Virus record (IMG/VR): IMGVR_UViG_3300021475_000041
Location: 1-31,557 of that record
DNA: 31,557 nt
Reading direction: 5' to 3' (one strand)
From: a virus
Below, one piece after another: positions 3,839-22,265 of the stretch. The notes beneath the pieces are model-generated. The model saw nothing but the letters and a program-made list of their open reading frames with translations, did not search any database and was not told where the DNA came from. The first letter of the stretch is position 1. Every line of letters begins with the position of its first letter. The position numbers and the translations under genes are program-made.

Positions 3839-4249
3839 GTGGCGAAGCCGTTCCGCCTGACGGCGCCAATCGTCCGTGAACATCCAATCCAGAAGCAGAT
3901 CGCCGACGTCCTCCGCATCGAGATCGCGCCGGCCGGAAAGGTCAGCCGTGCTGGCGTTGTTTGGTGGTCGATCGACCACGCAAATTATGCCGGCGAAGTG
4001 CCAGGGGTCCGGATCGGTCGCGGGATCATCGCCGGCATCCCCGATACCTTCGTGCTCTATCGCGGTATCGCGCACCTGATCGAGATCAAAGCGGAGGACG
4101 GCTCGCTATCCGTCGCGCAGCAATCGGTCGCCGCCGCCGTGCTTGCATCCGGCGGTCGCGTCGGCGTCGCCCGCGATGCGACCGAGACGCTTGCTTGCAT
4201 CGATCAATGGCAGATCCCGCGCAACCGGCGCGTCAGGGAGGCGGCATGA
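3839..4249 (+). CDS. VRR-NUC domain nuclease
   Basis: The protein has 136 residues and a GTG start two bases after the Cro-like stop. It has the signature of the VRR-NUC (PD-(D/E)XK) fold: G-I-P-D near residues 66-69 with the metal-binding Asp69, E-I-K at 82-84 with acidic and Lys catalytic residues, then a Gln pair (94-95) in a S-x-x-Q-Q segment, and a Gly-rich strand with G-R-V-G-V-A. Stand-alone VRR-NUC proteins in phages are structure-selective or nicking nucleases used in replication and recombination. It could serve as the nuclease partner missing from the Bet operon. Confidence 0.78.
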   Translation: MAKPFRLTAPIVREHPIQKQIADVLRIEIAPAGKVSRAGVVWWSIDHANYAGEVPGVRIGRGIIAGIPDTFVLYRGIAHLIEIKAEDGSLSVAQQSVAAAVLASGGRVGVARDATETLACIDQWQIPRNRRVREAA

Positions 4250-4250
4250 G

Positions 4251-4895
4251 ATGAGCGGTATGCGCTGGTCAAAATTCGTCTGGAAGGATTGGACCTCGGA
4301 CGCCGCGCTCCGGTCTTGCTCGCTCGCCGCACGCGGCTTGTGGATGGAGCTATTGTGCCTCTGCCACGAGGGCGAACCGCGCGGCTATCTGACGATCGGC
4401 GGACGCGCGCCGAGCGTCGGCGAGATCGCGAGACTGGTCGGTGCGCACCACCATGTCGTTGCGAAGCTGCTCGACGAACTGGAACGTCGCGGCGTGTTCT
4501 CACGCACCGAGTTAGGTCAGGTTTACTCCCGGCGTATCGTGCGAGACGAAGCGAAGTGGCACGCGAGTAGCGAGTGGGGTCACCGTGGGGGTAATCCGCA
4601 GCTAAAGCGTGGCGGATCAAAGACTAACGGCGCCGCAGGGGTTAACCCCAACGATAAGGCTAGCCTTATTCCAGAATCTAGACTCCAGAATCAGACTCTA
4701 GAATCCCCCTTAAAGTCCCCCAGCGGCGGCAGCGAGCAGGCCCCCTCCCCAACCCCTCACCCCGCAAGCGGGGGAGGGGCTAAGCGCGATCTTATCAACG
4801 CCGTTAAGGGCGCAGCCGACGCGGCCGCACCTGTGCCGCTGGAGGCGGTCCGCTGCCGACCCTTTCGCATCATCGCAGGGAGAGCCGCAGGATGA
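4251..4895 (+). CDS. replication-initiator-like protein with winged-helix N-terminus
   Basis: The product has 214 residues. The start at 4251 lies two bases after the nuclease stop; an earlier frame start would overlap it. The N-terminal 110 residues resemble a widespread alphaproteobacterial phage protein: W-S-K-F-V-W-K-D-W-T-S-D-A-A-L-R, then L-A-A-R-G-L-W-M-E-L-L, G-Y-L-T-I-G-G and a helix-turn-helix with V-A-K-L-L-D-E-L-E-R-R-G-V-F. This arrangement recalls phage replication initiators and helicase loaders. The C-terminal half is disordered and contains a DNA palindrome (4742-4779) read as P-S-P-T-P-H-P-A-S-G-G-G. It overlaps the next gene by four bases. Confidence 0.6.
   Translation: MSGMRWSKFVWKDWTSDAALRSCSLAARGLWMELLCLCHEGEPRGYLTIGGRAPSVGEIARLVGAHHHVVAKLLDELERRGVFSRTELGQVYSRRIVRDEAKWHASSEWGHRGGNPQLKRGGSKTNGAAGVNPNDKASLIPESRLQNQTLESPLKSPSGGSEQAPSPTPHPASGGGAKRDLINAVKGAADAAAPVPLEAVRCRPFRIIAGRAAG
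4742..4779. repeat. REP-like GC palindrome inside a coding region
   Basis: The element has a left arm at 4753-4765 (CCCCTCACCCCGC) and a right arm at 4768-4779 (GCGGGGGAGGGG), separated by AA, and is preceded by a partial copy of the left arm at 4742-4750. It looks like the short palindromic repeats scattered between genes in alphaproteobacterial chromosomes, here sitting in frame near the 3' end of a phage gene. One copy only was seen in this window. Confidence 0.6.
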
Positions 4896-7143: not shown

Positions 7144-7491
7144 ATGCCGGACCAACTGACGCGCGGCGCCGTGGTGCACTACGCCGAGCAATCGCTCATC
7201 GTCTGGACGCACAAGCCTGACGGCATTGCGCTCGGTATAGCGATCAGACCGCAGACCGGTCCGCGTCATCGTTCGCACGTTCCCATTTCCCCGACTGCTT
7301 GCCTGCCGCTCGGCTTGCGTCCGCGCGCCTCGATCGTCGCGACCGCCGAGCCGATGATCGCGATCCACCAGCCGCCGCGCGTGCTCGGTCTCGCGCCGGC
7401 AACGCTCCTGGCAGAGATCGCCGATACGATCCGCCGCGCGCACATCGCGAACCGCTTCGAGGTTGCGATGACCGGAGCGATATGGGCGTGA
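7144..7491 (+). CDS. hypothetical protein, 115 aa
   Basis: First gene after the terminator, with GGGAG six bases before the ATG. It starts M-P-D-Q-L-T-R-G-A-V-V-H-Y and looks like a small beta-rich N-terminal half followed by helices (A-T-L-L-A-E-I-A-D-T-I-R-R-A-H-I-A). The end overlaps the ParB-like gene by ten bases, so the two are likely co-translated. I do not recognise the family; the early R-G-A-V-V-H segment recalls SH3-like small proteins but is not enough to assign one. Confidence 0.5.
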   Translation: MPDQLTRGAVVHYAEQSLIVWTHKPDGIALGIAIRPQTGPRHRSHVPISPTACLPLGLRPRASIVATAEPMIAIHQPPRVLGLAPATLLAEIADTIRRAHIANRFEVAMTGAIWA

Positions 7492-8075
7492 CCGCTCGGC
7501 GAGCGGCGAAGACATCGCCGGCGCCGACGATCCAGTGGCCGGCCGATCGCGTCGAGCGCTGGTCGATCGAACGATTGATCCCGTATGCGCGCAACGCGCG
7601 GACCCACTCGGATGCGCAGATCGCGCAGATCGCCGCGTCGATCCGCGAATGGGGCTGGACCATGCCGGTGCTGGTCGATGGCGACGGCACGTTGATCGCC
7701 GGCCACGGTCGCGTGCTCGCGGCGCGGCAACTCGGTATCGCCGAGATTCCGACGATGACCGCGCGCGGCTGGAGCGAGTCGCAGATCAAGGCATACCGGC
7801 TCGCCGACAATCAACTCGCGACGCTCTCGGGTTGGGACGATCAGCTACTCGGCGTCGAGCTTGCCGAGCTTCGCGCGGTCGGCGCCAACCTCGAACTGAT
7901 CGGCTTCGCGACCGGCGACGTCGATAAGCTCATCAACGGACCGCAGGCGCCGAGTCAGTTTGGCGCCTATGACGAGTCGATCCCGGTCGAGCACACCTGT
8001 CCTAAGTGCGGATTCCGCTGGTCGGGCGGATCGAGCGGACCGGCGGGCGAAGGCGGCGATGATCCGTCCGAATAG
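7482..8075 (+). CDS. ParB/Srx-fold N-terminal domain protein with zinc ribbon
   Basis: The protein has 197 residues, with its start at 7482 inside the upstream gene's end. Residues 25-95 are a ParB N-terminal domain: L-I-P-Y-A-R-N-A-R-T-H-S, I-R-E-W-G-W-T-M-P-V-L-V-D, and A-G-H-G-R-V-L-A-A-R-Q-L-G, the position of the nucleotide-binding G-E-R-R-x-x-A motif. No ParB-type helix-turn-helix follows; instead a C-x-x-C pair (H-T-C-P-K-C-G-F-R-W) near residues 171-177 suggests a half zinc ribbon. In phages such proteins often lie beside DNA methyltransferases and act in DNA modification or nicking rather than partition. It overlaps the methyltransferase by 17 bases. Confidence 0.78.
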   Translation: MGVTARRAAKTSPAPTIQWPADRVERWSIERLIPYARNARTHSDAQIAQIAASIREWGWTMPVLVDGDGTLIAGHGRVLAARQLGIAEIPTMTARGWSESQIKAYRLADNQLATLSGWDDQLLGVELAELRAVGANLELIGFATGDVDKLINGPQAPSQFGAYDESIPVEHTCPKCGFRWSGGSSGPAGEGGDDPSE

Positions 8076-9342
8076 CAAGCCGCCGTATTGCATACCGTCG
8101 ATGGTCGAGATCGCGGCGATTCCGTTCAACGGATTGCGCGCGGTCTCGACGTTCTCCGGTTGCGGCGGTTCGTCGCTCGGCTATCGCATGGCAGGCTTCA
8201 AGGTCGCCTGGGCGAACGAATTCATCCCGGCCGCGCGCGATACCTACCGCGCTAACTTCCCCGATACGCGGATCGATGAGCGCGACATCCGGCAAGTCGA
8301 GCCTGCGGAGATACTCGACGCGGCCGGCGTGCTCGCCGGCGAGCTTGATCTATTGGACGGCTCGCCGCCGTGCGCGAGCTTTTCGATGGCCGGCAAACGG
8401 CAGCGCCATTGGGGACAGGTCAAGCGCTACTCGGATGGCAAGCAGCGCACTGACGATCTATTCTTCCAGTTCGTGCGGCTGCTGCGCGGTCTCCAGCCGC
8501 GCGTGTTCGTCGCTGAGAACGTCGCCGGTCTCGTTAAGGGCGTGGGCAAAGGGTTCTTTCTCGATATCCTGGCGGCGTTGAAAGACTGCGGCTACCGCGT
8601 CGAGGCGCGGCTACTCGATGCGCAATGGCTCGGCGTTCCGCAAGCGCGGCAACGGCTGTTCTTTGTCGGGACGCGGCTCGATCTCGCGATCGCTCCGGCG
8701 TTTCCGACGCCGCTCGCATACCGCTACAGCGTCCGCGACGCGCTGCCGTGGATCGGCGCGATCGAGCACGCTAACGGGTTCAACGGTCACGCTATGGAGC
8801 CGGTCGGCGTGCCGGCGCGAACCGTCCAGGCGGGCCGCTCGCTCAAGGTCCGCGTCAGCACCGCGCATCGGTCGCGCTCGATCGACGAACCGGCGCCGAC
8901 CGTGCAGACGCACAATAACCGGCACACCCGGAGCGAGATGGCGATCGAGACCGAAGCGGATATGTCGCGCTATGCGGTCGGTCGCGAGCTAGACAAGCTC
9001 GGACAGGGCCAGCAATCGGCGCGATACTTTCAGCTTACGCGCGCGTCGCTCGACGCGCCGGCCGGGACGATTACCGCAGAGGGCGGCAATCCGAGCCTCG
9101 CGTCGGTCGCGCATCCGACCGAGTGCCGCAAGTTTTCGATTGCCGAGCTACGCGCGATCTGCGGCTTTCCGGCAGACTTCGTGCTGACCGGAACCTACGC
9201 GCAGCAATGGGAACGGCTCGGTCGCGCGGTGCCGCCGCCGATGATGGCGGCGATCGCGGCGACGATCCGCGATCGCGTGCTAGACCCCAAACGCGAAAAG
9301 GGCGCGGATCGCTCCGCGCCCCTTCGTCGAGCAGCCGCGTGA
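8059..9342 (+). CDS. C5-cytosine DNA methyltransferase with Arg in motif X; candidate DNA carboxymethyltransferase
   Basis: The protein has 427 residues. The catalytic core is complete: motif I T-F-S-G-C-G-G-S-S-L-G (31-41), motif II with Glu54, motif IV G-S-P-P-C-A-S-F-S with nucleophile Cys105, motif VI E-N-V (153-155), and motif VIII Q-A-R-Q-R (195-199). The target-recognition region follows (about 250-345). Motif X, normally Q-x-G-N-x-V, reads R-L-G-R-A-V, with Arg389 (codon 9223-9225) in place of the Asn that contacts the cofactor. Changing this Asn to a basic residue in M.MpeI is reported to let the enzyme use carboxy-SAM and form 5-carboxymethylcytosine. With CmoA-like and AsnB-like genes nearby, the same activity is proposed here; ordinary 5-methylation is the alternative. 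Confidence 0.85.
   Translation: MIRPNSKPPYCIPSMVEIAAIPFNGLRAVSTFSGCGGSSLGYRMAGFKVAWANEFIPAARDTYRANFPDTRIDERDIRQVEPAEILDAAGVLAGELDLLDGSPPCASFSMAGKRQRHWGQVKRYSDGKQRTDDLFFQFVRLLRGLQPRVFVAENVAGLVKGVGKGFFLDILAALKDCGYRVEARLLDAQWLGVPQARQRLFFVGTRLDLAIAPAFPTPLAYRYSVRDALPWIGAIEHANGFNGHAMEPVGVPARTVQAGRSLKVRVSTAHRSRSIDEPAPTVQTHNNRHTRSEMAIETEADMSRYAVGRELDKLGQGQQSARYFQLTRASLDAPAGTITAEGGNPSLASVAHPTECRKFSIAELRAICGFPADFVLTGTYAQQWERLGRAVPPPMMAAIAATIRDRVLDPKREKGADRSAPLRRAAA
9300..9321 (-). terminator. intrinsic terminator for the minus-strand lipoprotein gene
   Basis: A perfect nine-base stem GGGCGCGGA/TCCGCGCCC with loop TCGC. Read on the minus strand it is followed by TTTTC. It sits within the last codons of the methyltransferase gene, so one sequence serves both the protein's basic tail and the terminator of the converging gene. 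Confidence 0.7.
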
Positions 9343-9350
9343 TGGTCGGC

Positions 9351-9689
9351 TTACCAGCAGCCGAACCGGCAGACGACAACCGGATAGACCGGCGTCACAT
9401 AGACCGGATGGCTCGCCGCGTAGCCGGCGGCAGCGCCCGCCGCCGCCGCGCCGAGCACCGCGAGAAAGCCGGTCGCGACTTCGGCGGCTTGCTGGTTATG
9501 CTCGGCGTTCACCTGGGCCTGGAGCGGCGCGACTTGCTCGCAAGCCGCTTGAATACCCTTCGCGCAGCCGGCGCGAACGCCGTCGAGATACGGCTGAGAC
9601 GGCGCCGCGCAGGCGGTTACGGCGAGCAGCGTCGCGAGCGTCGCCAATTTGAGCGAGCGCGCGCGGTTGGATAGGATCGAGATTGTCAT
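9351..9689 (-). CDS. putative outer-membrane or periplasmic lipoprotein (moron)
   Basis: A 112-residue minus-strand gene with AAGGA nine bases before its start. Residues 1-28 are a lipoprotein signal: a basic N-region (R-A-R-S-L-K), a hydrophobic stretch L-A-T-L-L-A-V, and a lipobox ending T-A-C at Cys27. The mature part has four further Cys and a Gly/Ala-rich segment (A-A-A-G-A-A-A-G-Y) near residues 81-90 that may insert in a membrane. It runs against its neighbours and ends three bases before its own terminator region. Possible roles are lysogenic conversion, surface exclusion or a lysis lipoprotein; none can be chosen from sequence. Confidence 0.65.
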   Translation of the reverse strand: MTISILSNRARSLKLATLATLLAVTACAAPSQPYLDGVRAGCAKGIQAACEQVAPLQAQVNAEHNQQAAEVATGFLAVLGAAAAGAAAGYAASHPVYVTPVYPVVVCRFGCW

Positions 9690-9722
9690 CGGGCGGGGTC
9701 CTTCCGCTTGGGTGATAGAGGG

Positions 9723-9754
9723 ACGGCGCCGACCGTTCGCGCGGTCGGCGCCGT
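9723..9754. terminator. 13-bp perfect hairpin between two minus-strand genes
   Basis: ACGGCGCCGACCG (9723-9735) pairs exactly with CGGTCGGCGCCGT (9742-9754) around loop TTCGCG. There is no T-run on either side, so termination would be imperfect. It may separate the DUF3489 gene from the lipoprotein gene or stabilise an RNA end. Confidence 0.5.
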
Positions 9755-9770
9755 TATTCGCTTTCGTCGA

Positions 9771-10406
9771 TCAAGCGGCGATATACCGCGTCTTGCCGTC
9801 CTCCCCCTTCGTCTTGGTGACCGAGCCGGCCGGCAGCAGCTTGATGACCCGCGAGATCGTCGCGCCGGCGGCTTGCCAGCCGAGTTTCTTGCAGACCTCC
9901 GCCTCGGTCGCGCCGTTCGGCCGGCGCATCATGTCGGCGATCGTCGCCTTGCTACCGGTCATCGGCTTCGTCTCGGCTTGCTTGCTCGCCTTCGCCGGCT
10001 TCGCCGCCTTCGGCGCCTTCGGCAACGCGGCGAGCGTCGCCTCTAGCTCGCGCCGCGCCTTGGCGAGCTTGTTCCGCTCGGACTGGAGTCCCGTCGCCCT
10101 CCCCTTCGCGCGCAGCGCTTCGATTTGGGCCTTGAGATCGTCCGCCTTGGCGGCGGCGGCGCCGAGCGTCGCGGGAGACGGTCCGCTCGCCGGCTTCGCC
10201 TTCGCGGCTTCCTTCCGCGCGGCTTCGTTCATCGGAAAGAGCTTCGCCAGTCCAGCCGGACCGGCCTTGCCCGTGCGAGCCGTCTTGGCGGCGCGCTTGG
10301 CTTCGTTCTTCGCGATGTTCTTGTCCATCGCCTTGCGGACAGCCGCCGTCTTGGCAGACATGCCATTGACCTTGCGGGCGGCGGACTTCAGTGTCTTGGT
10401 TGCCAT
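9771..10406 (-). CDS. Lys/Ala-rich DUF3489 protein
   Basis: A 211-residue minus-strand gene. Residues 1-140 are very rich in Lys and Ala, with a likely coiled coil at about 85-130 (D-D-L-K-A-Q-I-E-A-L-R and L-A-K-A-R-R-E-L-E-A-T-L). The C-terminal 65 residues match DUF3489, a small winged-helix-like domain: I-A-D-M-M-R-R-P-N-G-A-T-E-A-E-V, then L-G-W-Q-A-A-G-A-T-I-S-R-V, ending with K-T-R-Y. Such proteins occur widely in alphaproteobacteria and their phages and probably bind DNA, in a histone-like or regulatory role. It lies opposite to the modification genes on each side. Confidence 0.7.
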   Translation of the reverse strand: MATKTLKSAARKVNGMSAKTAAVRKAMDKNIAKNEAKRAAKTARTGKAGPAGLAKLFPMNEAARKEAAKAKPASGPSPATLGAAAAKADDLKAQIEALRAKGRATGLQSERNKLAKARRELEATLAALPKAPKAAKPAKASKQAETKPMTGSKATIADMMRRPNGATEAEVCKKLGWQAAGATISRVIKLLPAGSVTKTKGEDGKTRYIAA

Positions 10407-10435
10407 TGCTTTAGTCTCCAGTGGGTTACGGTTCC

Positions 10436-10470
10436 GAGGCGCCGCGTCAACGGCGCCTCAATCGTTTTTT
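10436..10470 (+). terminator. intrinsic terminator upstream of the AsnB-like gene
   Basis: GAGGCGCCG (10436-10444) pairs perfectly with CGGCGCCTC (10451-10459), then AATCG and six T residues. It reads in the plus direction and would block transcripts coming through the minus-strand morons, which implies a separate promoter for 10512 onward within about 40 bases, or regulated read-through. Confidence 0.65.
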
Positions 10471-10511
10471 CGCGGGTATCCGCACCAACCTCCAGCGCAA
10501 TCGTGTGCGTT

Positions 10512-11876
10512 ATGTGCGGAATAATCGGCGGTTACGCCGCGTGGAGCTTTGACGTCGCCGCGCGGCTCGACTTGATCCGTCATCGCGGTCCGGACGGTTC
10601 CGGCGTCTGCACAATCGGTCCGGCGACGCACGGCCACGTCCGCCTGTCGCTGCTCGATCTCACGGACGCATCGGCGCAGCCGTTCCGCTACGGCGACGCG
10701 GTGCTGAGCTTCGTCGGCGAGATTTGGAATTACCGCGCGGTGCGCGCCGAGCTTGAAGCGCAGGGCGTCGCGTTCCGCACTACCGGCGATACCGAAGTGC
10801 TCGCCGCCGCGCTCGCGACCTGGGGCGACGCCGCGCTATCTCGGCTCGAAGGCATGTTCGCGTTCGCCTGGAGCACGCCCGATCGGCACATCCTTGTGCG
10901 CGACCGGTTCGGCAAGGTGCCGCTTTACGTCTCGCGGCGCGGCGGCGCGTTCGCCTGGGCCAGCGAGCGCAAGGGGCTGGGCCGTGAGTGGCCCGCAACC
11001 GCGCTGCCGCCAGGAACCCTCCTAGACCTCGCAACGGGGCAGGTCTCGGCGTGGTATGCGCTTCCGCGCACCGTCGCCGACGATCGTCCGTTGATCGAGG
11101 TCCTCGAGGCCGGCGTCCGCGCGCGGCTGGTCGCCGACGCGCCGCTCTGTTGCCTGATCTCCGGCGGTCTCGATAGCAGTCTCGTGCTGATGCTGGCGCG
11201 CCGGCACAAGCCGGATGTGGTCGCCTATACCGCCGTGCTCGATCAAGGATCGCTCGATCTGCGAGCGGCGCGCCGGCTCTGCCGCGAGCAACAGGTCAGA
11301 TTGATCGAGGTCCCGGTCCGCGCGCCCACGTCGCAAAGTCTCGCCGACGCGGCGCGCGTGATCGAGATCAACAGCAAGGCGCAGATCGAGATTGCGGCGC
11401 TGTGCATACCGCTCGCGCGCGCCATCGCCGGCGACGGCTTCAAGGCGTGCCTGTCCGGCGAAGCGGCCGATGAGTTGTTCGGCGGCTACGGCTCGCTGTG
11501 CATCAAGGGTTCCAAGGCCGACGATGCCGGCTGGCGCGCGCTGCGCATCGCGCAACTCGAAAAGATGGCGCGCGGTAACTTCGTCCGCTGCAACAAGGCA
11601 TTCATGGCGGCTGGCGTCGAGTGCCGGTTGCCCTTCATGGAGCGTGCGCTAGTCGAGCGCGTATTGAGTATGCCGAAGCGTGCCTGTCCGCCAGGAAAGC
11701 GCGCGCTAAAGCAAGCCGCCGCCGGCGTGATACCGCCGTGGATCATCAGCCGTCCGAAAGACACCTTCCAGGGCGCGAGCGGTATGGCGGACGCAGCGGC
11801 GCGCGCGGTCGCCTATCCGGCGGCGTTTTACCGCGCCGAGATCATGACGCAGTTCGGATCATCCGCGAGAGACTGA
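10512..11876 (+). CDS. asparagine-synthetase-like glutamine amidotransferase; candidate base-amidating enzyme
   Basis: A 454-residue protein whose ATG is fixed by the required Cys2 after Met removal. Residues 1-185 are a class II glutaminase domain: M-C-G-I-I-G-G, H-R-G-P-D (24-28), R-L-S-L-L-D (44-49), G-E-I-W-N-Y (69-74), G-D-T-E-V (92-96). Residues 195-454 are the ATP-dependent synthetase domain with the pyrophosphatase loop S-G-G-L-D-S-S (217-223) and S-G-E-A-A-D-E-L-F-G-G-Y (315-326). It is about 100 residues shorter than E. coli AsnB. The oxyanion-hole Asn before G-E-I is Val68, so glutamine use may be weakened. Next to the CmoA-like gene it may amidate a carboxymethyl group rather than aspartate. 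Confidence 0.85.
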   Translation: MCGIIGGYAAWSFDVAARLDLIRHRGPDGSGVCTIGPATHGHVRLSLLDLTDASAQPFRYGDAVLSFVGEIWNYRAVRAELEAQGVAFRTTGDTEVLAAALATWGDAALSRLEGMFAFAWSTPDRHILVRDRFGKVPLYVSRRGGAFAWASERKGLGREWPATALPPGTLLDLATGQVSAWYALPRTVADDRPLIEVLEAGVRARLVADAPLCCLISGGLDSSLVLMLARRHKPDVVAYTAVLDQGSLDLRAARRLCREQQVRLIEVPVRAPTSQSLADAARVIEINSKAQIEIAALCIPLARAIAGDGFKACLSGEAADELFGGYGSLCIKGSKADDAGWRALRIAQLEKMARGNFVRCNKAFMAAGVECRLPFMERALVERVLSMPKRACPPGKRALKQAAAGVIPPWIISRPKDTFQGASGMADAAARAVAYPAAFYRAEIMTQFGSSARD

Positions 11877-11878
11877 GC

Positions 11879-12577
11879 ATGGACGCCGCGCCGAGCTTCG
11901 ATATTCCGAGCAATTGGACCTTCGAGGACAAGGGTGTTGCCGATGGCTTCGATCGGCACGTCCGCGAACAGCTACCGTGGTATGAGTTGGCGACCGGCGC
12001 AGTCGCGCACGTCGCGCGGCATTACATTCCGCTCGATGGCGTGGTCTATGATCTCGGCGCGGCGACCGGCAATATCGGGCGCGCGCTCGCGCCGACGCTG
12101 CAAGTGCGCAAAGCGATGCTGATATCGGTCGAGCCGTCCGCCGAGATGGCAGCGGCGTATCGCGGACCGCAGCGCAATAACCTGGAGATCGAGCGCGCCG
12201 AGCGCGTCAAGTTTCAACCGTTCGATGTCGCGGTCGCATTCCTGACGCTGATGTTCGTCCCCGTCGCCGAGCGCGCGCCGTTGCTCGATCGCCTATTCGA
12301 CGCGATGCGTCCCGGCGGCGTGCTGATCGTATTCGATAAGTGCGAGGCGGACAGCGGCTATGCGGGCACTGTGCTGTGGCGCCTGGCGCTAGCAGGAAAG
12401 CTCGCAACCGGCGTCGATCCTGCCGAGATCGTCGCTAAAGAATTGTCGCTGTCCGGCGTGCAGCGTCCGCTATCGCGCGGCGTGTTGCCGGCGCACGCGC
12501 TCGAATTCTTCCGCTTCGGCGAATTCGCCGGCTGGCTGATCGAAAAGGAAATCCCAAGATGTCGCCAGGACCCATGA
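11879..12577 (+). CDS. CmoA-like SAM enzyme; candidate carboxy-SAM synthase
   Basis: The protein has 232 residues and begins two bases after the AsnB-like stop. It follows CmoA along its whole length: W-T-F-E (13-16), V-A-D-G-F-D-R-H-V near 20-28, P-W-Y for P-G-Y, the SAM-binding V-Y-D-L-G-A-A-T-G-N (56-65), F-L-T-L-M-F-V, R-P-G-G-V-L-I-V-F-D-K (144-154), and the CmoA-specific region V-D-P-A-E-I (179-184). CmoA turns SAM plus prephenate into carboxy-SAM. In my by-eye alignment the E. coli Arg199 that binds the carboxylate falls at Glu188, beside Lys187, so cofactor synthesis is not assured. No CmoB partner is present, which argues against the usual tRNA role. Confidence 0.75.
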   Translation: MDAAPSFDIPSNWTFEDKGVADGFDRHVREQLPWYELATGAVAHVARHYIPLDGVVYDLGAATGNIGRALAPTLQVRKAMLISVEPSAEMAAAYRGPQRNNLEIERAERVKFQPFDVAVAFLTLMFVPVAERAPLLDRLFDAMRPGGVLIVFDKCEADSGYAGTVLWRLALAGKLATGVDPAEIVAKELSLSGVQRPLSRGVLPAHALEFFRFGEFAGWLIEKEIPRCRQDP

Positions 12578-13029
12578 CCACCGCCCATCGCGGCGGCGAT
12601 CTCTATGCAACGCGCGCCGGCTCGCCGGCGATCCCGAGCGCACCGCCGCGCGTCGATCCGCCGTTCGTCGCACCGCCGCCGGCGCACCAGGGACGCGGCA
12701 GTGCCGCGCTCGCGCTCGCCGATCGTATCGCCGCGCAGTCTCGCGCCGCGACCGTCGCGCGCGAGGACGTCACGCCCGAGCTTGAACCGGACAACCCATC
12801 GCTCACGACCGAAGAACCCGGCGAGGACTTCACCGACAATGAGGACGTGACCGACGAACTGGAGCCGTTCGATCCGTCGATCGAAAGCGCGCTGCGCGTG
12901 ACCGTAACCGGCGATGAATCGTCCGTGACGATTACCGCCGAGGAAGGCGAGACGATCGTCGGCGTGACCGAGGAAGACGACGGGAACATCGAGGTCCTGG
13001 TCGAAGATACCTCCGACGTGTTGCTGTAG
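12574..13029 (+). CDS. acidic hypothetical protein
   Basis: The product has 151 residues. The start at 12574 is favoured over 12559 because AGGA lies six bases before it and it makes an ATGA overlap with the CmoA-like stop. Residues 1-70 are Ala/Pro/Arg-rich and probably flexible; residues 75-151 are strongly acidic with Glu/Asp clusters (E-E-P-G-E-D-F-T-D-N-E-D) and alternate beta-type segments (V-T-V-T, V-T-I-T). Its coupling to the modification genes and position just before the head genes leave two ideas open: a DNA-mimic or accessory of the modification system, or a head scaffold or decoration component. No family recognised. Confidence 0.55.
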   Translation: MTTAHRGGDLYATRAGSPAIPSAPPRVDPPFVAPPPAHQGRGSAALALADRIAAQSRAATVAREDVTPELEPDNPSLTTEEPGEDFTDNEDVTDELEPFDPSIESALRVTVTGDESSVTITAEEGETIVGVTEEDDGNIEVLVEDTSDVLL

Positions 13030-13040
13030 GAGCGCGCGCC

Positions 13041-13676
13041 ATGCCGTTCGATGCCATGCCACCACGGATCACCAAGCAAGCCGAGATCAGTGCGGTCGAT
13101 GAGAACCGGTCGGCGCGCTTCGTCGCGTCGAGCAATCGGATCGACCGCTACGGCGACATAATCGAGCAGGAATGGGACCTCGCCGACTTCTGGCGCAATC
13201 CGGTGTTCCTGTGGTCGCACAATTCCTGGGGGATGCCGATCGGCTGGGTCCGCGAATTCGAGCCGGACCGAGACCGGACCGAGACCGTCGCGCGCGTCGA
13301 GTTCGCGCCCGAGGGCCACGATGAGTTCGTCGATAAGCTCGTGCGCGCCGTCAATCTGCGGCTGATCCGCGCGGTCTCGGTCGGCTTCGTGCCGATCGAG
13401 ATGGAGGACCGGCTCGACGAACGGGGGCGATGGGACGGCTATCGTTTCATGCGCAACCAACTGATCGAGCTATCGCTCTGCACCATTCCAGCCAATCCCG
13501 ACGCGCTCGGTCTCGCGCGCTCGATCGATGGCTCTCCGAAATTCCTTCGGCGCGTATTCGCCGATGGAGTGTTCCGCGCAACCGCCGATTCGCACTCTGC
13601 TCCGAAGCCTGCGAGCAAGTTTGTGGTGCGCGATCAAGCGGTCGCCGATCTCGCGCGGTTCAAGACTACGGCTTGA
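13041..13676 (+). CDS. HK97-family prohead protease
   Basis: A 211-residue serine protease that matures the procapsid by cleaving the scaffold part of the capsid protein. AGGAG precedes the ATG. The N-terminal domain shows R-Y-G-D-I-I-E (36-42), N-P-V-F-L-W-S-H with the likely catalytic His60, then R-A-V-S-V-G-F with the likely nucleophile Ser113, and L-I-E-L-S-L-C-T-I-P-A-N-P (141-153), whose Glu143 is a candidate for the acid. It lies directly before the capsid gene, the normal order. The C-terminal 45 residues are variable and probably self-cleaved. Confidence 0.9.
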   Translation: MPFDAMPPRITKQAEISAVDENRSARFVASSNRIDRYGDIIEQEWDLADFWRNPVFLWSHNSWGMPIGWVREFEPDRDRTETVARVEFAPEGHDEFVDKLVRAVNLRLIRAVSVGFVPIEMEDRLDERGRWDGYRFMRNQLIELSLCTIPANPDALGLARSIDGSPKFLRRVFADGVFRATADSHSAPKPASKFVVRDQAVADLARFKTTA

Positions 13677-15490: not shown

Positions 15491-16939
15491 ATGGCGCTGC
15501 GCGACTTCATCACCCGCGTCGGGATGCGTCTCCGGCTGATTACGCGCAACGCGTGGCTGCCGACCGTGCCGCCGAGGGAATGGGGACATACGTGGTATCA
15601 GTCCGGCTATCCGTCGCCGAACACGATGCCGCCGCTGCTTACGTTCCCGGCGGTCTATACGTCGATCGATACCATCAGCAGCGACATCGCGCGGTTGCCG
15701 GTCAAGCATTACAAGATGGAGCAGGGCCAGCGCATCGAGGTCGAGAATTCCGCGCCGCTACGCGTGCTCGACAAGCCGAACGGCTACCAGACCCGCTTCG
15801 ATATGATGAAGCAATTCGTCGCGGCACAACTCTATCGCGGCAACAGCTACCTGTATGCGAAGCGCAACCGGCGTTATGAGATCGATGAGCTTCACGTGCT
15901 GTTCCCCGATAACGTCTATGCCTATCGCTCCGGCAGCGAAGTCTTCTATGAGGTTGGCGCGCAACCGCTCGCCGAGATCGACGTCCGGAAGATGCTGACG
16001 ACGCGTGAGTGTCTCCACCATCGCATGTTCACGCTCGCCGATCCGTTGATGGGTATCACGCCGCTGATCGCGGCGGCGCTCTCGACGTCGGCGGGGATGG
16101 CGATCATCCGGCAGTCCGAGCGGTTCTTTAACCAAATGGCGCGACCGTCCGGCGTATTGTCCACCGCCGGCCGGCTCGATCCGAAGAAAGCGCAGGACAT
16201 CAAGGATCGCTGGAACGCGGTCTATAAGGGCATCCAGAATAACGCCGGCGATGTCGCGGTCCTCGAGGAAGGGCTCGAATGGAAAGCCCTGACGATGACC
16301 TCGGTCGATGCGCAGTTGATCGAGCAGCTACGCTATACCGTGGAAGACGTCGCGCGGGTCTATCGGTTGCCGATCTTCATGCTCGGCGATCTGACGAAAG
16401 TCTCATACAATTCGTCGGAACAGCTTGTGCGGATTTACTACTCGGGCTGTCTGGTCGCGCACATGGTCGCGCTCGAAGACAGGTTCTCCCAATTCTTCGA
16501 TATGAACGGGCGCACCGAGTGGCTCGAATTCGATACCGATTACCTGTTCCGGACCGAGATGGTCGCGCGCATCGAAGCGCTCGCGAAGTCGGTGCAAGGC
16601 GGTATCCGCACGCCGAATGAGGCGCGCATCATCGAGGGTCTCAATCCGGTCTCCGGCGGCGATGTGATCTTCATGCAGCAACAGATGGCGCCGGTCGAGG
16701 TCCTCGCGACGCGCGCCGATCTAACCAGCAAGCCGCCGAGCGGTCCGGCGCCGACGCCGCAACCGGCCGCGCTACCGGCGCCGGAGCGCACCCCCGTAGC
16801 GGTGCCCTCAGACGCGCTACGCGACGCGTTGATGGGTGCCGTGTTCGCGGACCGGCCGGCGAGCCGGACGCTCCTAGCCCCTGTCGAGCGGCGAGCAACA
16901 AGGCGACTGATCCATGGACGGCGATCTCGCATTGCCTGA
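15491..16939 (+). CDS. HK97-family portal protein
   Basis: The portal protein, 482 residues, forms the dodecameric channel at the head vertex through which DNA is packaged. Family features run in order: V-Y-T-S-I-D-T-I-S-S-D-I-A-R-L-P (54-69), G-N-S-Y-L-Y (116-121), L-F-P-D-N-V near 137, the H-x-x-x-F-T-L-A-D-P-L-M-G-I-T-P-L segment near 178, P-S-G-V-L-S, Q-L-I-E-Q-L-R-Y-T-V-E-D-V-A-R-V-Y-R-L-P, and R-T-P-N-E-A-R near 373. The C-terminal 80 residues are Pro/Ala-rich. It follows capsid instead of preceding protease, the reverse of the common order, and no terminase lies upstream in the window. Confidence 0.92.
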   Translation: MALRDFITRVGMRLRLITRNAWLPTVPPREWGHTWYQSGYPSPNTMPPLLTFPAVYTSIDTISSDIARLPVKHYKMEQGQRIEVENSAPLRVLDKPNGYQTRFDMMKQFVAAQLYRGNSYLYAKRNRRYEIDELHVLFPDNVYAYRSGSEVFYEVGAQPLAEIDVRKMLTTRECLHHRMFTLADPLMGITPLIAAALSTSAGMAIIRQSERFFNQMARPSGVLSTAGRLDPKKAQDIKDRWNAVYKGIQNNAGDVAVLEEGLEWKALTMTSVDAQLIEQLRYTVEDVARVYRLPIFMLGDLTKVSYNSSEQLVRIYYSGCLVAHMVALEDRFSQFFDMNGRTEWLEFDTDYLFRTEMVARIEALAKSVQGGIRTPNEARIIEGLNPVSGGDVIFMQQQMAPVEVLATRADLTSKPPSGPAPTPQPAALPAPERTPVAVPSDALRDALMGAVFADRPASRTLLAPVERRATRRLIHGRRSRIA

Positions 16940-19900
16940 GACGTTCATCGACGCGGTAGTGCGCGCGCTCGCGCCGGTGCTCGTGCGGTTGCGCGAGGAC
17001 GTCCAGGCGCGGCTTGACGCGTTCGAGGTTGCGCTCGCCGAGCGGATGGCCGAGCGGCAACTCCAGACCGGCGAGCTACTCGATGAGAGCCGGCGCCACG
17101 CCGAGGACTCGATCCGGCAAAGTGCCGAAGCGGTCCGCTCGCTCGCCGCGCTGGTGGTCGCCGAGACCCGCGCGATGCCGGACCGGCTTACCCAGCAAGT
17201 CGCGCTGCTGCCGCGTCCGCGCGATGGCCGCGACGGTCACTTGACGATCGCGCACGGCTACGTCGCCGGCCGCGTCTATGATCCTGGCGAGCTTTGCCGG
17301 CATCGCGGCGGAACGTGGCAGGCGATCGACCGGACCGCCGACACGCCGGGACCGGACGCGACGACATGGCGCATCGTCGCGGACGGCTTGCACGAGATCG
17401 ACGGCACGCAGGACGCGGGCGATCCGCGCGCGTTCACGCTCGGCGTCGAGCAAAGCGACGGCTTGCGGCGCGAGCTTGCGGTCCGCTTCCCGATTCCGCT
17501 CCACCGCCGGCAGTTCGCCGGCGATGCGGTCTATGAGATGGGCGATGAGGTTGCGCTCGACGGTAGCACTTGGCGCTGTGTGGTCGAGCGCGCGAACACG
17601 TCGCCGCCGTCGCCGGAATGGGCGCTGGTCTCGCAACGCGGCGGACGCGGCAAGCAGGGCGAGCGCGGACCGCAGGGCGAGCAAGGCGTCTCCGGTGCGC
17701 CAGGACGGCACGGCGAGCCGGGACCTGTTGGCGTAGCGGGGCCAGCCGGTCGCGGCGTCTCCGGCGTCCGTAGCGTTAGCGCTGGGGTGATTCAACTCAT
17801 CTTCACCGATGACGAATTGAGCGAGCCGATCGACGTGACCGCGTTCCGCTATCGCGGCGCCTATAAACCCGGCGAGAGCTATAGCGCGGGCGATGTCGTC
17901 CGGCTCGGCTTCAATCTCTTCATCGCGCTTGCGCGGACCGAGAGCGTGCCGAGCAACGCGTCGAGTGATTGGGCGTTGTTCCTGCCGGGTGTCGAGCCGG
18001 CGTCGGGTAGCGGCATTCCCGGCTCAGAGACGTTTGTCGTGCGAGCCGGCGATAACATGACCGGAGCGCTCGGCTTATTCGGTCCACCGACGCAACCGCT
18101 CCACGCGACAACGAAGGCTTACGTCGATGCGATCGTCGGTGCTCGGGCGACCTATCGCGGTCTCTGGCAGGTCGCGCTAAACGATCCGGATTTGACCGCC
18201 ATCGTCGCCAACCCCGGCGACTATTACACGGCTACCACCGCTGATCCGGCGATGCCCGAGCGGGCGCCTCCGGAGATCGCCGGCATCGGCGGCGAGATCA
18301 TCAGCAATGGCGACTTCGTTATCTGGACCCACGAACGCGACGAATGGGAGCATCTCGGCGGCGGCGGACTGACGCGCATCGAGGCGGACGATCTCTATGT
18401 GTTCAAGGCCGGCGATACGATGACCGGCGTGCTGCGCGTAACCCATCCGAGCGGACCGGGCGCCGAGATCGGTCTATCGACCAGTCTCGGCGACGCCATC
18501 ATTGCATTGGGTGGAACCGAAATCTCGGTTGTGCGATTTGACGCGGACGGACTCCACCGCTGGGCAATCGGCACGACGGGCCTCCAGCTAGGGAATTATG
18601 ATCTCGGCTTCGTCCGCTACGGCGCGACCGGCCAGCCGCTCGACGTGCCGATCCGCTTCGTCTCGGCGGATGGTAGCTTGCAGATCAATAACGAAATATT
18701 CATGCACAAAGCGGGCGACCAGACCGGCAACGCGCCCTCTGTTCGTTGGGCCGACGATAGCGGCAATCTGGCGTGGATTTACGGCTCGCGTTCGGCGTTG
18801 CTCGGCGGTCCGGCCCTGATCTTCCGCGTCGAGAATATCCCGGCGGCGGACGGTAGTCCGCAAGGTGCTGAGACGTTGATGCGCTCGCGTCCGGCCGACG
18901 TGTTGGGCGAGCCACCGCACCTCGAACTGATGATCGACCCGGCCGAGCCGCAAGACGCGGCGACGAAGCGCTATATCGACGATCTGCTCGCGCCGCTGCC
19001 CGGCGAGTATGTGTTGAAAGCCGGCGATACGATGACCGGGCGCCTAACAATCACGGACCCGATTTTCGAGCCGGCAGTCGAGTTGCGCGGCACAGAGCAC
19101 GCCGGGATTCTGTTTAGCGACTCCCGAGATACCGCACCGTTATGGTCGCTTGCTTACAATATCCAAGGCGTCGGTGGGCCGATTGGATTCAACATTAGTC
19201 GATTTAGTCCCGACGGCTTAACTCCGGAAGATATTGGTATCATCTCGATTGACAATAACAGCCTAATTACCGCCAGGACGATCCGCACGCGCGACGGCGA
19301 TCCGGTCAATGACAACGATCTCGCGCGCAAGGCGTATGTCGATACGCTTGCCGACAACTTTGTGCTCAAGGCCGGCGATATGATGACCGGCGATCTCGAA
19401 TTCGACGTGGGATCGCCGGTTCTGCCGATCAATCGTGCGCCCGGTATCGTATGGGAGGCCGAGCGCTTCGGTGTCTTCGTTGCTGACAGTGCCGGAGTGA
19501 CCGGGCTTTGCCTGCAAGCCGATCGTCTCGACCATCTATTCGCGGTCGATGAATTCACGAACCGCGCGGAAATCCTAACCGAGCGAACCGGAATCATGGT
19601 TCGCGGCGGCGATCGTGGCGAGATGACCGGATTCCTGACGCTGCACGCTAATCCGGTCGATGACCTGCACGCCGCGCCGAAGCAATACATCGATGAGCTA
19701 TTCGATCGCGGTCCCGATCTATTCGTCGCGAAGGGCGGCGATACGATGACCGGCAATCTGATGGTGCGCTTTCAAGATACCGGACCGTCATCGTCAGTAT
19801 CGCTCGGCACGGTCGCCGGCTCGCTCGCCGCGCTGCAACTCGACGGGATCGACGGCGAGATATTGCAATTCGCCCGCGAGGGTTCCGGCAAATGGACATT

Positions 19901-22265
19901 CGGCGTCACGCCGATGGTAGGTCTAGCCGAGGATCTCGCGATTATCCGCCACGCCGCAGACGGATCGGTTGCGGATATTCCGCTGCGCATCGCGTTAGGA
20001 TCGGGTCTCATCTCCGTCGTGAATCATATCCGCACGAGCGCGGGCGATCCGGTCGATGACAACGATCTCGTGCGGAAATCCTATATCGACACGCTCGCGA
20101 CGTCGCTGATCCGCTATCAGGGTCTCTGGCAGGTCGCGGCGAACGCTCCGGACCTTATTACGTGGCCTGCGCAATCGGGCGATTACTTCATCGCCGAGAC
20201 CGCCGATCCGCAGATCGCCGAGACCGCGCCGGCCGGCATTCCCGGCATCGGCGGACAAACGATCTTTAATCACGACTGGATTCTCTGGTCGCCGCGATTG
20301 AACGAATGGGAGCGCTTGGTCGGCTCGGGTGGTGGTCTGACGCGGCCGGAGGCGGATGCGCGGTATATCGTCAAGACTGGCGACGATATGCAGGGCTTCC
20401 TGACCCTGTTCGACGATCCGGTTACCGATATGCACGCCGCGAGCAAGCGCTATATCGACCGGCGGATGGTCCGCGATTGGGCGATCGGATTGGAGATCGC
20501 GGCCGGCGAGGTTGTGCGCTGGGATAATATGCTATTCCGGGCGCGCCTCGCGATTCCGTCCGCGCCGGCGACGCCGGACTATTCGACGCTCGATCTCTAC
20601 GGTCAGAATCAGGGCGACTATTGGCAAGGCGCGCCGTCGCTAACGAATTACGCGACCGGCAACTGGATGCAATTGGTCACGTTACCGGCTTACGGCTCAT
20701 TCCGCTTTCATATAGACGTGTATGGTAATACCTGCGACTGTTCGTTCATACTCGACATCACCACCACATTTAACGCCGCGTCGATGTCGCTCTCGATGGC
20801 GCGCAATCCTGCCGGCCTTATGTTCGATCAATTCCGGCTCAGCGATACCGGCGGCGCTACGGTCAAGCGACTAGAAGCGCGCCTCCGGAATGCCGGCACT
20901 ACGCCATCATTCAAAATCCACTGTCTGGGGATGCACCGCGAGGTTAATACCCCTAATCAGGTGATTATCCCGAAGCCGCCGCAGGCACTTGCGGGCGGCG
21001 CCAATCTCGGCGGGACGCAGCGCGTCTTGCTAACCGGTCTCGAAACAGCGGGCGTTACCGCCGCCGACAGCAATATCGCCATAACGAACGGCGGCTTTAT
21101 TCGCTTCGGGCACGCTAACGCGATCGACGTAAACGACGGAAGGATGGGCGCGCGGCTATTCGGTCGCGGACTCAACATCGTTGGCATCCCGACCGAGGCA
21201 GGCAATACCGAGCGGTATATACAACTGTTTGGCATCGTCGAAAACGTGAACCGCAATTTCGTCACGGCCACGGACGGCTACGGCTTAGAGACGATGGCGG
21301 GAGGGCGCTTCTACAAAGCGGTCGGCACCGGTCTCGTTATTCGCTGCCATAGCGGCAACACGCAGCCGCAGATTGAGGATAACAATGGCAGCAACCGCCG
21401 TGCGATTCTTGATACGCGCGGCGGCACCCTGACCGGTGGGCTGAGCTTTGGCAGCGTAGCGCAGGCGAGCGTCACCGACTTGTCGCGGCATCTCGCGCTC
21501 TGGGGCACCACCTTCGGCTTTAGCATTACCGGCGGACGGCTTAACGCCGTCGTGCCCGCCGCGAATTCCTTTGTAATAACGGTCGGCGGCGCCGACGTTG
21601 CATCGTTCTTTAATAACGGAATCAACGCCAACCAGCCGATCAATGTCCGCCAGCCGAACAATACCGTCGCTGTGCGTCTGATGGCCGCGACCAATGCGGC
21701 CGGCGTTATTAGTCCCTGGCTCTTGGGAACCGATAGCACCAACAATGAATTCGGCCGCATCTGGTGGGACGGACCGGGGTGGAATGGCCGGTGGGAAGCG
21801 CGGCTGCACTTCGGCATGAATATGGGCGGCTATGGCTGGACCGAGAATGCGCGCTTTAATACCTATCAAAGCGGCGGCCAGTTTTACGTCATCAACGACT
21901 GTTCCGTTCAGTCGCTAACCCAGCGCAGCGCGCGAGCCGACAAGCGCGACATTCGCGCCGCGCAAGCCGACGAAGTGCAAGCCGCCTGGGACCGGATCAC
22001 GGTGCATCGTTTCCGATGGAACGAACCGCCGCCGCCGGTCGATGACAAGGGCAAGCGGTTGCCGCACCCCGCGCCGTATATCGAACGGCGCATGAAATTC
22101 GGTTTCATCGCCGACGATCTGCCGGAAGACTTGCAAATGTATGCCGCTCCTGGCGTTCCTGATCCGACCAAGGTCGAGGGTTACGATCTCGCGCAAGTGC
22201 TCGCGCTGACCGTCGCCAAGGTCAAAGCGCTCGAAGCCGAGATCGCCGAGCTACGCAATGCCTGA
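16914..22265 (+). CDS. giant collagen-containing fibre protein with C-terminal S74-like chaperone
   Basis: The product has 1783 residues; its start overlaps the portal gene by 26 bases. Order of parts: a helical N-terminus (20-95, likely coiled coil), two carbohydrate-binding-like small beta modules around 120-240, about 40 residues of G-x-y collagen repeats (about 243-284), another small module, then six or more repeats built on A-G-D-T-M-T-G-x-L followed by K-x-Y-V/I-D, known from tail fibres. A G-L-W-Q-V module of about 95 residues occurs twice (near 413 and 1068). The end, from about 1665 (S1672, D1676), resembles the S74 intramolecular chaperone with F-G-F-I-A-D-D and a final coiled coil. 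A receptor-binding fibre is likely; its place in the head module leaves head or neck fibres possible. Confidence 0.8.
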   Translation: MDGDLALPETFIDAVVRALAPVLVRLREDVQARLDAFEVALAERMAERQLQTGELLDESRRHAEDSIRQSAEAVRSLAALVVAETRAMPDRLTQQVALLPRPRDGRDGHLTIAHGYVAGRVYDPGELCRHRGGTWQAIDRTADTPGPDATTWRIVADGLHEIDGTQDAGDPRAFTLGVEQSDGLRRELAVRFPIPLHRRQFAGDAVYEMGDEVALDGSTWRCVVERANTSPPSPEWALVSQRGGRGKQGERGPQGEQGVSGAPGRHGEPGPVGVAGPAGRGVSGVRSVSAGVIQLIFTDDELSEPIDVTAFRYRGAYKPGESYSAGDVVRLGFNLFIALARTESVPSNASSDWALFLPGVEPASGSGIPGSETFVVRAGDNMTGALGLFGPPTQPLHATTKAYVDAIVGARATYRGLWQVALNDPDLTAIVANPGDYYTATTADPAMPERAPPEIAGIGGEIISNGDFVIWTHERDEWEHLGGGGLTRIEADDLYVFKAGDTMTGVLRVTHPSGPGAEIGLSTSLGDAIIALGGTEISVVRFDADGLHRWAIGTTGLQLGNYDLGFVRYGATGQPLDVPIRFVSADGSLQINNEIFMHKAGDQTGNAPSVRWADDSGNLAWIYGSRSALLGGPALIFRVENIPAADGSPQGAETLMRSRPADVLGEPPHLELMIDPAEPQDAATKRYIDDLLAPLPGEYVLKAGDTMTGRLTITDPIFEPAVELRGTEHAGILFSDSRDTAPLWSLAYNIQGVGGPIGFNISRFSPDGLTPEDIGIISIDNNSLITARTIRTRDGDPVNDNDLARKAYVDTLADNFVLKAGDMMTGDLEFDVGSPVLPINRAPGIVWEAERFGVFVADSAGVTGLCLQADRLDHLFAVDEFTNRAEILTERTGIMVRGGDRGEMTGFLTLHANPVDDLHAAPKQYIDELFDRGPDLFVAKGGDTMTGNLMVRFQDTGPSSSVSLGTVAGSLAALQLDGIDGEILQFAREGSGKWTFGVTPMVGLAEDLAIIRHAADGSVADIPLRIALGSGLISVVNHIRTSAGDPVDDNDLVRKSYIDTLATSLIRYQGLWQVAANAPDLITWPAQSGDYFIAETADPQIAETAPAGIPGIGGQTIFNHDWILWSPRLNEWERLVGSGGGLTRPEADARYIVKTGDDMQGFLTLFDDPVTDMHAASKRYIDRRMVRDWAIGLEIAAGEVVRWDNMLFRARLAIPSAPATPDYSTLDLYGQNQGDYWQGAPSLTNYATGNWMQLVTLPAYGSFRFHIDVYGNTCDCSFILDITTTFNAASMSLSMARNPAGLMFDQFRLSDTGGATVKRLEARLRNAGTTPSFKIHCLGMHREVNTPNQVIIPKPPQALAGGANLGGTQRVLLTGLETAGVTAADSNIAITNGGFIRFGHANAIDVNDGRMGARLFGRGLNIVGIPTEAGNTERYIQLFGIVENVNRNFVTATDGYGLETMAGGRFYKAVGTGLVIRCHSGNTQPQIEDNNGSNRRAILDTRGGTLTGGLSFGSVAQASVTDLSRHLALWGTTFGFSITGGRLNAVVPAANSFVITVGGADVASFFNNGINANQPINVRQPNNTVAVRLMAATNAAGVISPWLLGTDSTNNEFGRIWWDGPGWNGRWEARLHFGMNMGGYGWTENARFNTYQSGGQFYVINDCSVQSLTQRSARADKRDIRAAQADEVQAAWDRITVHRFRWNEPPPPVDDKGKRLPHPAPYIERRMKFGFIADDLPEDLQMYAAPGVPDPTKVEGYDLAQVLALTVAKVKALEAEIAELRNA
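17748..17774 (+). repeat. 27-base direct repeat, copy in first fibre gene
   Basis: Identical to 25152-25178 in the third fibre gene; encodes G-R-G-V-S-G-V-R-S directly after the collagen segment. A second exact match of 35 bases follows (17826-17860 with 25230-25264). Confidence 0.85.

Follow-up and report, generated by a model that had tools for sequence, protein, structure and literature searches.

A phage gene cassette with a motif X arginine, predicted to make a hypermodified cytosine through carboxy-SAM

The closest described system is the CmoA-CmoX-CmoY pathway of Synechococcus phage S-B43 (Yang et al. 2025, PMC12783734), where CmoA makes carboxy-SAM, CmoX (SpCmoX) makes 5-carboxymethylcytosine and CmoY (SpCmoY) caps this base by ligating glycine. 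Residue Arg350 of SpCmoX, which was equated with Asn304 of M.HhaI, contacts the carboxylate of carboxy-SAM in the crystal; the enzyme uses carboxy-SAM only and its R350N variant is dead, accepting neither cofactor (PMC12783734). The same study listed 5,615 CmoX candidates from sources that include IMG/VR, noted ParBc neighbours of CmoX whose role is unknown, suggested that ammonia is the substrate of one cluster of ligases, which carry a glutamine amidotransferase domain and gave no soluble protein, and reported that a preliminary search gave no CmoA-associated candidates for N6-adenine or N4-cytosine carboxymethyltransferases (PMC12783734). Our literature search found no other paper on natural 5-carboxymethylcytosine. 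Related pockets have also been engineered, as in M.MpeI N374K and in M.HhaI Q82A/N304A, where Q82 and N304, the two conserved residues of motifs IV and X, were exchanged for shorter ones so that bulky groups of the cofactor can fit in (PMC10666283).

The stretch analysed here (the window) comprises 31,557 nucleotides of the IMG/VR record IMGVR_UViG_3300021475_000041, and because it is itself a virus record it may be among the published CmoX candidates. Its cassette is a further member of the CmoX family already described in December 2025, and therefore carboxymethylation by this cassette is no discovery. The parts that inform beyond the published system are a second pocket site that co-varies with the first, a diverged CmoA and an untested type of ligase. 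The genes are arranged in the order ParB, CmoX, CmoY and CmoA (7482-12577), with two unrelated minus-strand genes between CmoX and CmoY (Table 1). Phage genes in the window include those of a major head protein, a portal protein and a tail sheath. We also noticed three consecutive proteins (16914-22265, 22258-24510 and 24510-25847), one of them of 1783 residues, that have a stretch of about 120 residues in common; this stretch is also found in PHROG portal proteins, and tail-fibre-like stretches are present as well.

Table 1. Features of the window cassette and representative loci of the ParB-methyltransferase fusion (locus handles precede the positions where these lie outside the window).
Feature	Position	Strand	Remarks
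ParB-like protein	7482..8075	+	197 aa; PHROG 620 E 4e-50; PF02195 weak, below cut-off
CmoX-type DNA cytosine C5-carboxymethyltransferase, predicted	8059..9342	+	427 aa; PF00145 E 4e-54; best PDB match 8YF3 (SpCmoX) E 4e-66
Catalytic Cys105 (TGC) and Ala106 (GCG)	8371..8376	+	Ala106 at the position of M.HhaI Gln82
Motif X Gly-Arg-Ala-Val	9220..9231	+	Arg389 = CGC at 9223-9225
CmoY-type amide ligase, predicted	10512..11876	+	454 aa; asparagine-synthetase-like with N-terminal glutamine amidotransferase domain; Pfam GATase_6/7 and Asn_synthase; best PDB match 1CT9 (AsnB)
CmoA-like carboxy-SAM synthase, predicted, diverged clade	11879..12577	+	232 aa; best PDB matches 4GEK/1IM8 (CmoA) by sequence and predicted fold
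phrog_5475 fusion	L201:1986-3494	+	CmoA at 3919-4563; also in L195, L207, L244, L266 and L272
phrog_5475 fusion	L279:702-2237		Gordonia phage Evaa; CmoA-family gene adjoining or near, TIGR00740 E 4e-30
phrog_5475 fusion	L280:1032-2624		Aeromonas phage HJ05; CmoA-family gene adjoining or near, TIGR00740 E 7e-35
phrog_5475 fusion	L281:4947-6503		Pseudomonas phage PA_L9; CmoA-family gene adjoining or near, TIGR00740 E 6e-26

The initial annotation had read motif X of the methyltransferase as Gly-Arg-Ala-Val and had considered motifs I, IV, VI and VIII to be intact. Both readings are borne out by the open reading frame, where bases 9220-9231 are GGTCGCGCGGTG (codons GGT CGC GCG GTG) and motifs I (STFSGCGGSS), IV (SPPC, with Cys105), VI (AENV, with Glu153) and VIII (QARQR) were all found in the translation. 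The motif X arginine is residue 389 if the start is placed at 8059 and residue 375 if it is placed at 8101. SpCmoX was the top PDB match in a phmmer search, and the alignment pairs LGRAVPPPMM of the window with VGRMVPPLMM of SpCmoX so that Arg389 falls on the Arg350 column; HaeIII and DNMT1 read GNAVP at this column. The arginine therefore occupies exactly the column of the motif X asparagine, as had been proposed, and a misalignment of motif X is ruled out. The S-B43 record gives residue 350 for the SpCmoX arginine and Cys98 for its nucleophile, in agreement with PMC12783734. The window enzyme and SpCmoX are 36% identical over 400 residues and share the C5-methyltransferase fold, the SPPC nucleophile loop, the motif X arginine and their CmoA and AsnB-like neighbours. 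The target-recognition region, however, is longer in the window enzyme and therefore recognition of GC, as by SpCmoX, should not be taken for granted. Prokaryotic relatives were found in assemblies of Verrucomicrobia, Gemmataceae and Acidobacteria at 49-58% identity.

The residue that follows the catalytic cysteine co-varies with the residue of motif X. It was observed to be alanine or serine in all 80 rows with arginine in motif X; in the rows with asparagine it is glutamine (16/17) or valine (1/17), and glutamine also occupies this site in most of 65 background PF00145 enzymes. Plain 5mC methyltransferases are marked by the asparagine and the glutamine, and the window enzyme has neither, with Arg389 and Ala106 at these positions. 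SpCmoX has a serine where the window enzyme has an alanine, the residue being small in both. The engineered enzymes are changed at the same motif X residue as the window enzyme. M.MpeI N374K has an engineered lysine whereas the arginine of the window enzyme is natural; the M.HhaI variants carry engineered alanines that were chosen for steric reasons only, and the Q82 position is also changed in the window family. Since the Q82 and N304 positions were also picked by chemists for large cofactors, nature and design have met at the same place. The rule is thus sharpened to two sites, alanine or serine after the catalytic cysteine together with arginine in motif X. The main text of PMC12783734 does not mention the site after the cysteine, which the sequence logos there may show.

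Taken from sequence and from analogy with the described enzymes, the cassette very probably makes a hypermodified cytosine, with carboxy-SAM formed by the CmoA-like protein and then used by CmoX for carboxymethylation. The CmoA-like protein would turn SAM into carboxy-SAM, as its phage and E. coli homologues do. The methyltransferase would flip out the cytosine, Cys105 would attack C6 and a carboxymethyl group would be transferred instead of a methyl group. Homology to SpCmoX and the co-variation of the two pocket sites suggest a pairing of Arg389 with the carboxylate of carboxy-SAM, for which Ala106 would make room. In the least certain step, the AsnB-like protein would adenylate the carboxylate on the DNA and then amidate it, and the product may, by analogy, shield the phage DNA from host nucleases.

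The amine used in the amidation step would most likely be ammonia because the ligase has a glutamine amidotransferase domain, and we give about an even chance to the resulting primary amide, 5-carbamoylmethylcytosine, which as far as we know is a base not yet seen in DNA. The ligase, located beside CmoX, has the N-terminal cysteine (MCGIIGG), the SGGxDS PP-loop (LISGGLDSS) and the Asn_synthase domain, and it scores 253.8 bits against NCBIfam TIGR01536, below the asparagine synthetase cut-off of 267.1 bits. The oxyanion-hole asparagine (Asn74 of AsnB), which supports glutaminase activity in AsnB, is replaced by Val68 (10713-10715). Valine is also found here in the relatives L046 and L048, whereas the remaining CmoY proteins with an amidotransferase domain keep the asparagine. 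Val68 may weaken the use of glutamine and therefore ammonia is considered likely but not certain. The same carboxymethylated base could instead receive another amine (glycine, another amino acid or a small amine) if the amidotransferase domain is degenerate, which would fit both the valine and the use of glycine by SpCmoY (PMC12783734). We consider this unlikely, as the domain is full length, scores well in Pfam and keeps Cys2, the arginine of the RLxL motif and the aspartate of GDTEV, and the glycine ligase SpCmoY has no such domain.

What SpCmoY and the window ligase share is the asparagine-synthetase ATP-pyrophosphatase domain with its SGG(L/V)DS loop. The window ligase belongs to the type grouped with A0A7T0Q3R0 in PMC12783734, which could not be assayed there, and this type represents the half of the published pathway that is still to be tested. 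Among the loci collected by their methyltransferase, AsnB-like genes of the CmoY type occur only beside arginine enzymes. No such gene was found in the records of the closest relatives of the cassette, which are fragments. The amidation step is therefore regarded as optional, and the capping resembles a module that is gained and lost. The cultured Streptomyces phage TurkishDelight (NC_073473) has the gene order of the window, with identities of 55% for CmoX, 40% for CmoY and 29% for CmoA. Its CmoY also contains the amidotransferase domain but, unlike that of the window, keeps the oxyanion-hole asparagine, and its CmoA falls outside the clade of the window protein.

The CmoA-like protein of the window was matched to 4GEK in a sequence search of the PDB (E 5e-12), and its AlphaFold model (mean pLDDT 90.5) ranks 1IM8 and 4GEK (CmoA/YecO) first with an E of 1.6e-14 and a TM-score of 0.74-0.75 normalised by the query. 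It is 26% identical to E. coli CmoA and reaches 57.1 bits (E 2e-15) against the NCBIfam model TIGR00740 (CmoA), below the cut-off of 193.3 bits. The fold, the SAM-binding residues Tyr39 and Asp62, and Lys198 are shared with E. coli CmoA (PDB 4GEK, 4IWN). Arg199, which holds the carboxylate by a salt bridge in the E. coli enzyme (PMC3663124), is replaced in the window protein by Glu188, and an invariant arginine, Arg196 (codon 12464-12466), lies eight residues on; the lid ends in KELSLxGxQRP where E. coli has KRxxLExV. All 54 sequences of the window clade, which includes Moraxella phage Mcat8, have glutamate at the Arg199 place, phenylalanine at the Asn132 place and the invariant arginine eight residues on. 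A second phage clade and E. coli CmoA are among the other 23 sequences, and Arg199 was found in 21 of the 23.

These shared replacements could mean that the CmoA of this clade makes another acidic SAM analogue, in which case the modified base would not be 5-carboxymethylcytosine. Such a product is very improbable, since SpCmoA is active and, by sequence comparison, also lacks Arg199. Therefore Arg199 does not define CmoA activity and was dropped as a required feature. Furthermore, the window clade and the clade that keeps Arg199 alternate on the CmoX tree (14 changes by parsimony, with several weakly supported branches). As the two replace each other repeatedly, an exchange of equivalent enzymes with the same product is suggested. 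Our preferred reading remains carboxy-SAM as the product, and we tentatively propose, at slightly less than an even chance, that 5-carbamoylmethylcytosine is carried by the window phage and by those relatives whose CmoY is of the amidotransferase type, TurkishDelight among them, and that the carboxy-SAM comes from the diverged CmoA clade, which would bind the carboxylate through a different arginine.

The initial annotation had taken Arg389, after the example of M.MpeI N374K, as a hint of a switch to carboxy-SAM, and this is supported by the proven homologue SpCmoX and by the co-occurrence of CmoA. Relatives were collected by their methyltransferase (80 viral and 8 genomic) with search patterns that did not include the motif X residue. 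A CmoA-like gene was observed in the available flank of 73 of the 75 arginine enzymes (relatives and window); in the two exceptions the contig breaks off at distances of 184 and 70 bases. None of the 14 asparagine enzymes in this set has a CmoA-like neighbour, and several of their loci have 10 kb available on each side. The association has a Fisher p of 1.6e-14, uncorrected for kinship. Searches of whole genomes, which partly overlap the collected loci, gave five arginine genes that each have a CmoA-like neighbour and three asparagine genes that have none. When loci were collected by CmoA instead, 29 were found to hold a CmoX-type gene and motif X has arginine in all 29. Arginine was present in 76 of 90 aligned close relatives and in none of 65 unrelated PF00145 enzymes, which come almost entirely from two phyla; many plain 5mC enzymes with arginine and no CmoA, which would have spoken against the switch, were thus not what we observed, and arginine as a common neutral variant is ruled out. 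The overall fold and catalytic motifs would also fit a plain 5mC methyltransferase in which the arginine substitution is neutral, but this is hardly credible, as arginine is absent from ordinary enzymes and tracks CmoA, and SpCmoX takes only carboxy-SAM (PMC12783734). A cofactor switch can therefore be predicted from one codon read by eye, and this prediction held up when more than 100 relatives were compared.

The association between the motif X residue and CmoA is perfect in extent but depends on a small number of evolutionary events. Parsimony on the methyltransferase tree requires three or more changes between arginine and asparagine, and a single arginine clade is not rejected by the AU test. 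The correlation therefore cannot count as many independent events, and the claim of several independent switches was dropped. The close relatives with asparagine in motif X (L053, L061, L064, L073-L075 and L086-L089) have glutamine, or valine, after the catalytic cysteine. As both pocket sites differ together in these natural enzymes, they are useful for swapping experiments. No CmoA was found at these loci, yet a ParB gene adjoins the methyltransferase. In the window the ParB-like gene is directly upstream of CmoX and overlaps its start at 8059. Since ParB-like genes occur beside both arginine and asparagine relatives, ParB as a partner specific to carboxymethylation is ruled out. A distant CmoX-like methyltransferase was also noticed in large Erwinia phages; for example, NC_061451 encodes one at 31912-34017 (37% in two pieces) and a CmoA-like gene at 12583-13305, about 19 kb away.

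Collection by CmoA added 66 loci to the set collected by methyltransferase, and a C5-methyltransferase was absent nearby in 35 of them. In 29 of these 35, and in two further loci with an unrelated methyltransferase, a protein of about 503 residues that corresponds to phrog_5475 (function unknown) is encoded upstream of CmoA. In five of the six remaining loci a contig end lies at CmoA or cuts off CmoY; the sixth, L198, is without explanation, its 7.8 kb contig carrying CmoA and an SpCmoY-like ligase and no CmoX. When the 503-residue protein was modelled, residues 1-93 were seen to form a ParB domain at the N-terminus (Z 11.4 to CTP-binding ParB) and residues 220-462 a methyltransferase domain of the class I SAM type (Z 14.0 to METTL6). 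When loci were collected by this fusion protein instead, CmoA was found in 34 and CmoX in none of the 35 viral loci with a clear homologue. The fusion is also linked to CmoA in cultured phages (Table 1), and Pseudomonas phage SM1 likewise has both, no CmoX being seen there or in Evaa and HJ05. The fusion occurs with CmoA and never with CmoX, and therefore these phages combine CmoA with one or the other of two partners that exclude each other. Linkage and predicted fold make the ParB-methyltransferase fusion a candidate user of carboxy-SAM with another chemistry, which would represent a second class of DNA modifier. At L260 the fusion is found without CmoA and is accompanied by a phosphatase-like gene and then a gene similar to the terminase small subunit. 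The pair of fusion and CmoA is present in 12 Pseudomonas phage records.
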